Of a DNA stretch of 40,004 bases, positions 9,986 through 15,843 are shown one piece after another. Under the pieces are notes generated by a model. It was not told the origin of the DNA, did no database searches, and saw nothing but the letters and a program-made list of their open reading frames with translations. Origin of the DNA: Jannaschia seosinensis. GTDB lineage: Bacteria; Pseudomonadota; Alphaproteobacteria; Rhodobacterales; Rhodobacteraceae. Position 1 is the stretch's first letter; each line of letters opens with the position of its first letter. Location of the stretch: contig NZ_CYPR01000097.1 of assembly GCF_001408515.1 (NCBI RefSeq), positions 1 through 40,004 on the forward strand, in the 5' to 3' direction. Both the position numbers and the translations under genes were made by a program.

Positions 9986-10016
9986 TGTGATCACACTTTC
10001 CGTAGCTGTGATCACA
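9986..10016. promoter_or_regulatory. Twin TGTGATCACA operator upstream of the suc operon
   Basis: Two identical 10-bp perfect palindromes, TGTGATCACA, occupy 9986-9995 and 10007-10016. Their centres are 21 bp apart, two turns of B-DNA, so two dimers could bind side by side on one face. The near edge is 116 bp upstream of sucC. The same doublet with the same spacing is upstream of sdhC (15813-15843). The protein that binds is not identified. The half-site TGTGA resembles a CRP/FNR half-site, but the halves abut without the usual 6-bp spacer. This 371-bp gap (9871-10241) otherwise holds only the mdh terminator. Confidence 0.7.
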
Positions 10017-10212
10017 TTTTTGCCCGTCGCAAAGACCGTTTTGCGCGTCAGCAGGACCGTGAGTTGCGGTCGCGTTTCCCGACTTGGCGCGCGGATTCGA
10101 GGGCGCGCACCGTCTCGTCTGTTGGCGCCGGACGCGGCATGGCGTCGGGTGTGACGGTCTGGGTGGATGGCCCGTTCGGATGTTATCGTCCGGCCGCCGG
10201 GTATGCGGTATC

Positions 10213-10232
10213 GGGGCGGCCGAAGCCGCCCC
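10213..10232 (-). terminator. Hairpin terminator after mdh
   Basis: An 8-bp perfect stem, GGGGCGGC / GCCGCCCC, lies 10 nt past the mdh stop. Read on the minus strand, the loop is TTCG, the very stable UUCG tetraloop. There is no T-run after it, so termination may be incomplete. Confidence 0.6.
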
Positions 10233-10241
10233 GGTTCGGCC

Positions 10242-11204
10242 TCAGGCCAGTGTGCTGTCGATATTCTTGCAGGCGTCCACGAGGCCGCGGACGGCCTCGA
10301 CCGACTTGTCGAACATCGCCTGCTCGTCGCGCCCGAGCTTGATGTTCACGACACGCTCGATCCCGCCGGCGCCGATTACGGTGGGAACGCCGACATACAT
10401 GCCCTTCAGGCCAAGCTGTCCATCGACCCAAGCGGCGGCCGGCAGCAGGCGCTTCTGGTCCTTGAGATAGGCCTCGGCCATCTCGATCGCGGAGGCGGCG
10501 GGGGCGTAGAAGGCCGATCCGGTCTTGAGGAGGCCGACGATCTCCGCCCCGCCGTCGCGCGTGCGCTGGACGATGGCGTCGAGGTTCTCCTGGCTGGTCC
10601 AACCCATCTCGACGAGGTCGGGCAGGGGAATGCCGCCGACGGTGGAGTAGCGCACGAGCGGCACCATCGTGTCGCCATGACCGCCAAGGACGAAGGCGGT
10701 GACGTCGCGCATCGAGACGCCGAATTCCAGCGACAGGAAGTGCCGGAAGCGTGCGGAATCGAGCACACCGGCCATTCCGACGACCTTCTCGTGCGGCAGG
10801 CCGGAGAATTCGCGCAGGGCCCAGACCATCGCGTCGAGCGGGTTGGTGATGCAGATCACGAACGCGTCGGGCGCATTGGCCTTGATGCCTTCACCGACGG
10901 CCTTCATCACCTTCAGGTTGATGCCAAGAAGGTCGTCGCGGCTCATGCCCGGCTTGCGCGGCACGCCGGCGGTGACGATGCAGACATCCGCACCCGCAAT
11001 GTCGGCATAATCGTTCGAGCCCTTGAGCGTGGCATCGAACCCTTCGACCGGGCCGCTTTCGGCGATGTCGAGCGCCTTGCCCTGTGGCACACCCTCGGTG
11101 ATATCGAAGAGGACGACGTCCCCCAGTTCCTTGATGACGGCCAGATGGGCGAGGGTGCCGCCAATCTGTCCGGCGCCGATGAGGGCGATCTTCGGTCGGG
11201 CCAT
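10242..11204 (-). CDS. mdh: Malate dehydrogenase (NAD, LDH-like type)
   Basis: This 320-residue enzyme interconverts malate and oxaloacetate with NAD. The ATG at 11202-11204 gives [21 protein letters not shown], with the Rossmann GxGxxG at residues 8-13. Then follow [17 protein letters not shown], the substrate loop [31 protein letters not shown] and [15 protein letters not shown], whose His176 is the proton acceptor. Length and motifs fit the LDH-like tetrameric MDH of alphaproteobacteria, not the E. coli type. An upstream in-frame extension to 11552 covers another gene's region and is rejected. It forms its own unit between the suc operon and the divergent mcl2 cluster and has its own hairpin downstream. 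Confidence 0.97.
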
Positions 11205-11300
11205 GTCTGTCTCCGAATGGTTCGGTAGGTTGCCGCGTCGGGCTATCGGATGCGCCATGCCGGGCGCAAGAGCCGGGGCCTCCGGGCGGGGGCTGTTACC

Positions 11301-11333
11301 GCAAACGAAAGGCCCGCCGGGTCGGGCGGGCCT
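11301..11333 (-). terminator. Rho-independent terminator of the secreted-protein gene
   Basis: The stem AGGCCCGCC / GGCGGGCCT (11310-11318 with 11325-11333) is followed on the minus strand by TTTCGTTTGC. It lies 29 bp past the stop of the 113-aa gene and about 100 bp before mdh, separating the two units. Confidence 0.75.
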
Positions 11334-14286: not shown

Positions 14287-14307
14287 GGTGCCGGTCGGCG
14301 TCGGATC

Positions 14308-14640
14308 CTACTTCATCGGATCGTGACCCCAGTTCATCAGGCTGTAGCGCCAGTCCGAATGCTCCACGTCGTCGTCGGGGCCACCCTGCGCCTTGTGGCG
14401 TTTGATGTAGCCGACGACCTTGGCCATGTGGTCCCAATCGCCTTCGGTTAGATCGTCCTTCTTGGTGTGCTTGATCTCGACGATCTTCTTGCCGGATTTG
14501 TGGCCTTTCGATTCGCCGTCGCCGCTATCCTGCCCGACGGACTTCGACTCATCCGTGTCGAGAAAATCCTCGATCTCCTTGGGCGACATGTTCACGAGGT
14601 CGCGCCATTCGTCCCAGATTTCGTCCTTCGACTTCGACAT
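14308..14640 (-). CDS. DUF3140 protein
   Basis: This 110-residue, very hydrophilic, charged protein reads MSKSKDEIWDEWRDLVNMSP, EIEDFLDTDESKSVGQ, KSGKKIVEIKHTKKDDLTEGDWDHM, KVVGYIKRHKAQ and WRYSLMNWGHDPMK. These blocks match the DUF3140 family, whose function is unknown. Members are small and resemble stress- or DNA-associated proteins in composition. It lies 26 bp downstream of the membrane-protein gene on the same strand, so the two form a unit. It ends 21 bp from the convergent DUF4344 gene. No terminator is obvious between them. Confidence 0.85.
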   Translation of the reverse strand: MSKSKDEIWDEWRDLVNMSPKEIEDFLDTDESKSVGQDSGDGESKGHKSGKKIVEIKHTKKDDLTEGDWDHMAKVVGYIKRHKAQGGPDDDVEHSDWRYSLMNWGHDPMK

Positions 14641-14666
14641 GATCGTGCTCCTTTCGTCCGGGGCCT

Positions 14667-15698
14667 TCAGGTCCGTGCGACGCGGCCCGCAGCGGCGCCG
14701 CCGACCGCGGCGCCCAGCCCGATGAGCGATGCGAGCGCAGCCAGCCAGGCAGCGGAGGCGGCGGCGTCCATGGCGGCGTCGATCGCATCGACGGCTTCCT
14801 GTTGCGCGGTCTCGACAGCCTGAGTTGCCTCCGCCTGAAGCTCCTCGACGCGCGTCTCGATCTGCGTGAGGTACTCCTCGGCCTGTTGCGGGGTGAGGCC
14901 GAAACGCCGCTCCATGACGGCTACGGCCTCGCGGCGATCCTCTTCTGAAAGCACGCCGCCGGCGCCGAAGATCGAGTCGATGAAGTCATTCGCCGTCTCG
15001 CCGATATTGCCGGGTGAACGGATTATGTCCTGCGCCGCATCGGCCGCTTGCGAGCGGATGCGGGCCTGCTCCTGCTCGGAGATGACGGCCCGGAAGGCTT
15101 CGCGCGCTTCGGCGCGGAAGTTCTCGGGCGTGATGCCCTCTTCGCGCAGCGCCGACTGCACGCCTTGGGGCAGGTCGTCCATCGACAGCGAGCCGACCGA
15201 CAGATCGGGAAGGGAGAAATCGTCGGGAATCACGGTCTGCGCCGCCGACGAGACACCGGAGGCGATGGTGGAGACGGCCGATCCCGCGGCGCCCGCGATG
15301 CCCATTGCCGCCTGGGCCGCCAGCCACACCGCGACCAGCGTCGTCAGAGCCCAGACCGTCGCGCCATGCAGCATCGCGCCGACGGAGTGGATTACGCCCG
15401 CCAACCGTCCGGCGACGTAGCCGCCTGCGCCGAGTGCGATGAGCTGGCTGATGAACTGCCAGATGGCCGTGGTGGTCAGCGAGCCATTCATCGGCGAGGC
15501 CTCGTCGGCCTCGATCAGCGTGAAGCCGAGGCCGATCCCGGCGAGGCCGAGCAGGACGAAGATGCCGAGTGCGACGACCGTACCGGCGAAGATCGCGCCC
15601 CAGATGGCGCGGCCATTGCCGTCATAGAGCCGCTCGATATCGTCATGCATCAGATCGCGCGCATGTGCGGCGGTGTCGTTCCTGGTCGTGTCGGCCAT
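14667..15698 (-). CDS. Multi-pass membrane protein (PhnA-like annotation group)
   Basis: This 343-residue membrane protein starts at the ATG at 15696-15698. An upstream in-frame extension crosses the divergent promoter region and is rejected. After a hydrophilic N-terminus come a segment at about 31-60 (AIWGAIFAGTVVALGIFVLL), two more at about 74-130 (QFISQLIALGAGGYVAGRLA and WALTTLVAVWLAAQAAMGIAG), a long polar domain of about 170 residues, a coiled-coil-like stretch (EEYLTQIETRVEELQAEATQ) and a final segment at the C-terminus. Similar alphaproteobacterial proteins are often labelled PhnA-like, without evidence of phosphonate metabolism. It is divergent to sdhC, and the twin TGTGATCACG operator lies between them. 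Confidence 0.78.
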   Translation of the reverse strand: MADTTRNDTAAHARDLMHDDIERLYDGNGRAIWGAIFAGTVVALGIFVLLGLAGIGLGFTLIEADEASPMNGSLTTTAIWQFISQLIALGAGGYVAGRLAGVIHSVGAMLHGATVWALTTLVAVWLAAQAAMGIAGAAGSAVSTIASGVSSAAQTVIPDDFSLPDLSVGSLSMDDLPQGVQSALREEGITPENFRAEAREAFRAVISEQEQARIRSQAADAAQDIIRSPGNIGETANDFIDSIFGAGGVLSEEDRREAVAVMERRFGLTPQQAEEYLTQIETRVEELQAEATQAVETAQQEAVDAIDAAMDAAASAAWLAALASLIGLGAAVGGAAAGRVART

Positions 15699-15812
15699 GC
15701 AATGTCCTTCGGGTTTGAAATCTGGCGGTGAAGCGTGCCGTGACGGGCGCGCGAGGGCTTGCAGGGCAACCGCCCATATGGCGGTAAGGTTCCGGCTGCA
15801 GGTCGTCGTGTT

Positions 15813-15843
15813 TGTGATCACGCCTTGATGCGATGTGATCACG
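15813..15843. promoter_or_regulatory. Twin TGTGATCACG operator upstream of sdhCDAB
   Basis: Two copies of TGTGATCACG lie at 15813-15822 and 15834-15843, again with starts 21 bp apart, and the near edge is 114 bp from the sdhC ATG. The core GTGATCAC is a perfect palindrome. Sequence, spacing and distance match the doublet before sucC (9986-10016), so both operons probably answer to the same regulator. The doublet is also 115 bp upstream of the divergent membrane-protein gene and could control it. Regulator unknown. Confidence 0.7.

Follow-up and report, generated by a model that had tools for sequence, protein, structure and literature searches.

Paired palindromes before the suc and sdh operons of Jannaschia seosinensis as likely operators of the GntR/FCD regulator AkgR

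We analysed a stretch of 40,004 nucleotides of Jannaschia seosinensis (contig NZ_CYPR01000097.1, positions 1 to 40,004; the window in what follows), in which the 8-bp palindrome GTGATCAC occurs as a closely spaced pair, here called a doublet, before sucC and again before sdhC. The two doublets are very probably operators of the GntR/FCD regulator AkgR, likely encoded by a gene denoted P0001, which would activate the suc and sdh operons as paired dimers. Observed in this analysis were the sites with their conservation and placement, the joint occurrence of sites and gene, and the phased layout of the promoters. The regulatory system is real, strongly conserved and known in outline from Rhodobacter sphaeroides, and the rigid layout of the paired sites may be its sole new part. 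Since the regulon was already predicted and the regulator named in R. sphaeroides, the result is modest as a discovery; its use is that sequence alone yields a likely regulator and operator for the central energy metabolism of a large bacterial family, and that distance steps of one helical turn give a simple prediction on the geometry of activation.

The paired palindromes and their conservation

Direct reading of the window confirmed the twin palindromes that a preliminary description had reported before sucC and sdhC. In both places the copies start 21 bp apart, which leaves 13 bases between them (N13). The distances of 116 and 114 bp to the first ATG given in that description were measured again and agree within 1 bp: counted from the 8-bp palindrome, the near copy lies 116 bases from the ATG of sucC (minus strand, ATG at 9870) and 114 bases from that of sdhC (ATG at 15957). 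The four sites, each supported by the sequence, the genome search and the comparison with relatives, are as follows.

9987..9994, minus strand: proximal GTGATCAC palindrome of the predicted sucC operator
10008..10015, minus strand: distal GTGATCAC palindrome of the predicted sucC operator
15814..15821, plus strand: distal GTGATCAC palindrome of the predicted sdhC operator
15835..15842, plus strand: proximal GTGATCAC palindrome of the predicted sdhC operator

The only further exact GTGATCAC in the window, at 7072-7079, is coding sequence as had been described, within the open reading frame (ORF) 6576-7457 that has the Pfam domains of sucD. The single 8-mer with at most one mismatch is not enriched in the window (23 occurrences with 18.25 expected; 11 of 100 shuffles reach 23). 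The doublet count, by comparison, is 2 in the window versus 0 in 100 dinucleotide shuffles; this upholds the view that the arrangement is unlikely by chance, and no intact doublet beyond these two was found in the window. Searching the whole genome (3.83 Mb, 253 contigs) with spacers of N11-15 returned exact doublets at the sucC and sdhC places only, and widening the spacer to N8-28 added one place, with N22, on another contig. Further sites at gltA, icd or pdh had been anticipated, and this expectation was not borne out, in that the genome holds no third exact N11-15 doublet; the search did not extend to single sites. Other contigs of the genome carry four N13 doublets with 2 mismatches.

Conservation in relatives had been set beforehand as a refuting test, and the outcome favoured the proposal. 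We searched 60 genomes with spacers of N8-28: 36 from the same family, our own among them, and 24 from elsewhere in the class. The doublet was present in 33 of the 60 genomes and a reversed control pattern in none. Carriers were found in 31 of the 36 family genomes versus 2 of the 24 others (G049 and G051; spacers N14, N24 and N10). By hand count there are 63 places in the 31 family genomes, of which 57 have N12 or N13; the position analysis covers these 57, and the other 6 have N22 (five) or N28 (one). An exact doublet stands before sucC in all 31 carrier genomes (28 with N13, 3 with N12), 97-157 bp from the start, and before sdhC in 23 of them, with a near-exact one (14-15 of 16 bases) in three more (G006, G010 and G028). 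Where suc and sdh are on separate contigs (G013, G020, G021 and G034), doublets still accompany both. The family genomes without doublets are G011, G017, G023, G027 and G033, in which the best score is 9-10 of 16 before the sucC orthologue (9-11 before sucC paralogues) and 9-10 before sdhC. Three remaining N12-N13 places are in or overlap coding sequence and were set aside. Exact N13 doublets occur within a SufBD-domain gene in two Jannaschia genomes (L069:3948-3976 in G004 and L058:2060-2088 in G019), probably as a coding coincidence, and in G010 an exact doublet overlaps the 3' end of an ORF of the alcohol dehydrogenase family.

A second sample consisted of 149 family genomes, one per genus, 17 of which are also among the 36. 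The second position set comprises 67 of the 69 places that the matches listed hold in new genera. They lie before sucC in 34 cases (96-166 bp) and before sdhC in 31 (107-191 bp), so 65 of 67 places are at these two genes, in keeping with the claim that doublets stand upstream of genes rather than at random positions. The last two places are before sucA in G179 (L299:1201-1229) and 124 bp before the fumarase C gene (fumC) in G085 (L250:1501-1529); in some genera the predicted operator stands at these other genes of the tricarboxylic acid cycle. Among the named genomes, all six loci with a sufficiently long sucC upstream region have an exact N13 doublet. When up to 2 mismatches were allowed, 10 Jannaschia genomes gave 2-12 N13 places each, against a single place, in G001, for the reversed control; some of the mismatched doublets recur across genomes with a conserved spacer (e.g. 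G002, G003, G004 and G009), as coding sequence would, and there may be additional targets among these places.

The candidate regulator and its likely identity as AkgR

P0001 (G000:C209:3878-4537, minus strand) is located on a contig other than that of the window and is one of 10 FCD genes of the genome. Its Pfam domains are GntR and FCD, an N-terminal GntR winged helix followed by a C-terminal FCD domain. Orthologues of 66-92% identity were found in 31 of the 36 family genomes; these are exactly the 31 with doublets, and none of the five doublet-less genomes has one. In the sample of 149 genera, gene and doublet were both present in 129 genomes and both absent in 13, with the gene only in 4 (G083, G104, G165 and G190) and the doublet only in 3 (G062, G139 and G157), so that 142 of 149 agree (Fisher p = 7e-13, kinship ignored). 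Among the discordant genomes, G139, G165 and G190 are less than 80% complete, and G083 has doublets with one mismatch (15 of 16 bases) before both sucC and sdhC; G104 has no N13 doublet even with 2 mismatches allowed. The predicted operator and the candidate regulator gene are, by this comparison, mostly lost together. In the 7 loci checked, the orthologue of P0001 adjoins the far side of the suc operon. The same spot in our genome would fall past the end of the window contig, and P0001 is on contig C209. The position of the orthologue varies among genomes (e.g. G001 and G028), and in two Rhodovulum loci the regulator gene is about 10 kb from the doublet by sucC.

Each palindrome has GATC inside it, and the doublets might work with no regulator of their own, say as sites for nucleoid proteins or for methylation. 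However, a position at the same genes, a fixed spacing and joint loss with one regulator gene are not expected without a regulator, and we give this explanation hardly any weight.

Another GntR/FCD regulator of the genome might also bind the doublets, for example one of the near-identical pair on contigs C58 and C68. Among the 10 FCD genes this pair is the nearest to the GntR/FCD gene by the G049 doublet (34.8% identity versus 32.7% for P0001), and by this likeness it was our first candidate. We dropped it when no match exceeded 39% identity at E 1e-25 in 41 other genomes, 30 of them with doublets, whereas in the family P0001 and the doublets agree in all 36 genomes. Co-occurrence was assessed for P0001 and the C58/C68 pair, three of the 10 FCD genes, and we consider a different family member quite improbable. 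The pair itself (G000:C58:5861-6574 and C68:1907-2617; L082 and L096) is 95% identical, the neighbouring sequence is alike too, and an acquired segment seems to have been duplicated recently. The doublet of G049, a genome of another family of the class, has N14 (L042:5001-5030) and precedes a gene for a TonB-dependent receptor; past that gene comes a GntR/FCD gene about 33-35% identical to FCD genes of our genome. The presence of a GntR/FCD gene near this doublet suggests that related regulators with the same motif exist outside the family.

The sites had also been described as not belonging to CRP. A CRP site is TGTGA-N6-TCACA, with half-sites about one turn apart. Neither doublet shows this pattern, since the half-sites abut, and because the sites accompany a GntR/FCD gene that description fits. 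Many FCD domains carry an Asp-His-His-His metal site. In 22 sequences of the regulator N136, H140, H183 and D205 are invariant, and the match of these residues to the metal-site columns is our own reading, under which two of the four would differ. Structure prediction of the regulator (22 orthologues) gave a mean predicted local distance difference test score (pLDDT) of 63.8 and a predicted template modelling score (pTM) of 0.37, too low for interpretation. McbR of Escherichia coli acts on different genes. Its chain (PDB 4p9f) is the closest solved one to P0001 by sequence (E = 8.4e-23).

AkgR of R. sphaeroides was reportedly treated by Imam et al. in mBio in 2015, and we take the GntR-family factor RSP_0981 of that species to be AkgR. 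Its activator role and its motif are taken here from publication. According to excerpts of PMC6365646, AkgR is a R. sphaeroides activator with the motif GTGATCAC, and it shares 32% identity with a gntR-like factor of Pseudomonas simiae. According to excerpts of PMC4344238, RSP_0981 is predicted to regulate RSP_0967-6, RSP_0965-62 and RSP_0974-6, and its predicted targets are the genes of succinyl-CoA synthetase, succinate dehydrogenase and 2-oxoglutarate dehydrogenase. In the literature searched, no paper beyond PMC4344238 names RSP_0981, and searches with the 10-mer and the 8-mer returned nothing on this regulon among the matches listed. Given that the published AkgR motif is GTGATCAC and that suc and sdh are predicted targets of RSP_0981, the doublet system most likely represents the AkgR regulon of a Jannaschia; we infer by this analogy that P0001 is AkgR and binds the doublets in this species. 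The same palindrome has been proposed as the site of PS417_07240 of P. simiae (excerpts of PMC6365646), which differs from the present system in having a single palindrome, positioned -47 to -40 relative to the start codon, and in serving another pathway, the deoxyribonate cluster.

Several points weigh against this identification, or against a single regulator for both operons. In the sample of 149 genera 7 are discordant, and three of these (G062, 91% complete; G104, 91%; G157, 100%) lack an explanation. In 9 of the 16 genomes counted there as lacking the gene the score covers the best 20 candidates, though three of the nine (G023, G027 and G033) were scored fully in the comparison of the 36 family genomes; two of the counted orthologues, in G076 and G165, are just 48-50% identical. 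The two doublet carriers outside the family, G049 and G051, have no match to P0001 at E 1e-30. Five of the 31 regulator-carrying genomes (G005, G008, G012, G026 and G031) have no doublet before sdhC. By its number RSP_0981 would be on the sdh side, versus a place beyond the suc operon for the P0001 orthologues in 7 loci, and P0001 is called AkgR from the motif and the target genes; the 80 loci compared include no R. sphaeroides. Finally, sdh of R. sphaeroides is also predicted to be under the LacI-type factor RSP_1663 and NtrC (excerpts of PMC4344238), so further regulators may act at the suc and sdh promoters.

Promoter layout and possible mode of activation

The promoter elements downstream of the operators are as follows.

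9935..9940, minus strand: putative -35 of the sucC promoter (GTTCCC), from a conserved TT, with the start site deduced
9939..9986, minus strand: stretch with A/T peaks about every 10 bp from the sucC operator to the -35, from the family alignment and partly visible in the single sequence
15891..15896, plus strand: putative -35 of the sdhC promoter (GTGACT), 48 bp past the proximal palindrome, from comparison with relatives
15913..15918, plus strand: putative -10 of the sdhC promoter (TAGAAC), 16 bp past the -35, from comparison

Because a scan for consensus sigma-70 promoters found no match at sdhC, the -35 and -10 there are placed by comparison only. In 13 Jannaschia sdhC promoters with an exact doublet, GTGAC lies 47-50 bp past the proximal palindrome, and in 12 of these it is followed by TAGAAC or a variant 16 bp further on. 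For 10 other genera the distance is 57-60 bp in eight and 68 bp in G034, with GTGAC absent in G020. In the second set GTGAC was found at 25 of 31 promoters, at 48 bp (2), 57-60 bp (22) or 70 bp (1). Promoters that have no GTGAC after the doublet give no distance (G020 alone among the 23 of the first set, and 6 among the 31 of the second), and G015 has a second GTGAC at 37. The distance from the operator to the -35 at sdhC changes in steps of one helical turn (about 48, 58 and 68-70 bp). Among the genomes that have neither gene nor doublet, G011 and G017 retain GTGAC-N16-TAGAAC before sdhC, and G023, G027 and G033 have no GTGAC. At sucC a TT at offsets 47-48 past the proximal palindrome is conserved in 28 of 31 genomes at each column, more weakly in the second set, and is presumed to belong to the -35.

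Between the operator and the -35 the A/T content peaks every 10 bp at both operons and in both sets (best period 9.75-10.25; p = 0.0002, the lowest value that 5000 permutations allow). The periodicity holds with permuted blocks and without the flanking AAA (p <= 0.0004). Because the aligned rows share ancestry, these p values are optimistic; in the second set each genus is represented by one genome. A control region upstream of the operator is weakly periodic in 3 of 4 sets, with a power of 1.9-2.0 versus 5.7-7.9 downstream, and gave p of about 0.4 in one set and 0.002-0.02 in three. As the test covered doublet promoters, phased A/T tracts could be a general promoter feature in the family.

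Since the sites are 20-21 bp apart, the distance to the -35 shifts by whole turns and the A/T tracts recur every 10 bp, the layout suggests that activation proceeds from a single, fixed side of the helix. The preliminary description had proposed one regulator shared by suc and sdh that binds as paired dimers on one face of the DNA, and the comparative evidence points there, with the two-dimer state as our deduction from the layout. The same protein could instead be a repressor, with two dimers blocking or looping the promoter until an inducer frees them. Repressors on tandem sites do exist in the GntR family: according to excerpts of PMC8012715, three dimers of the GntR-type NanR of E. coli bind one (GGTATA)3 operator, which is alike in placing several dimers on a tandem site and unlike in that NanR represses sialic acid genes through GGTATA repeats. 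However, the sdhC sites are 47-70 bp upstream of the presumed -35, off the promoter, at a distance that shifts by whole turns, and AkgR is described as an activator (excerpts of PMC6365646). We regard repression as unlikely.

For activation by AkgR, we infer the following scheme. Each GTGATCAC palindrome of a doublet would hold one AkgR dimer, and the two neighbouring dimers, being two helical turns apart, would lie on the same face of the DNA. With the first base of the -35 taken as -36, the centres of the two sdhC sites would fall about 88 and 109 bp before the expected start. Activation of both the suc and the sdh promoter would depend on a contact of fixed rotational phase, for which the C-terminal domains of the alpha subunits of RNA polymerase are the simplest partner, and the A/T tracts with their 10-bp phase would assist the polymerase contact. 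The effector, to judge by the name AkgR alone, would be alpha-ketoglutarate. A stricter version, which we put forward tentatively, is that these promoters follow a fixed grammar of two GTGATCAC palindromes two turns apart, 10-bp A/T tracts and a -35 that shifts by whole turns. AkgR dimers and polymerase alpha might then form one rigid complex on a single DNA face that switches the segment from 2-oxoglutarate to malate as a unit, and the operator might follow the genes on rearrangement (sucA in G179, fumC in G085).

Genes and neighbours in the window

The genes of the two operons and mdh were assigned from Pfam domains.

8677..9870, minus strand: sucC, succinyl-CoA synthetase beta subunit (ATP-grasp_2 and Ligase_CoA)
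6576..7457, minus strand: sucD, succinyl-CoA synthetase alpha subunit (CoA_binding, Ligase_CoA)
2166..5417, minus strand: sucA, 2-oxoglutarate dehydrogenase E1 (E1_dh, OxoGdeHyase_C; ORF as listed, true start probably later)
540..2162, minus strand: sucB, dihydrolipoyl succinyltransferase (2-oxoacid_dh)
upstream of sucC, minus strand: mdh (Pfam)
15957..16340, plus strand: sdhC, first gene of the succinate dehydrogenase operon (Sdh_cyt)
16504..18549, plus strand: sdhA, flavoprotein subunit (FAD_binding_2, Succ_DH_flav_C; ORF as listed)
19516..20295, plus strand: sdhB, iron-sulfur subunit (Fer2_3 and Fer4 families)

An ORF for a family 2 glycosyltransferase (5311-6423, minus strand) sits between sucA and sucD, and two ORFs without a Pfam match (7518-8671, minus strand) separate sucD and sucC. 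Because these three ORFs intervene, the suc operon of the window may hold inserted genes. Between mdh and the sdh genes there are genes for an HpcH/HpaI-type lyase and an NnrU-family protein (11694-12779 and 12652-13335, plus strand).

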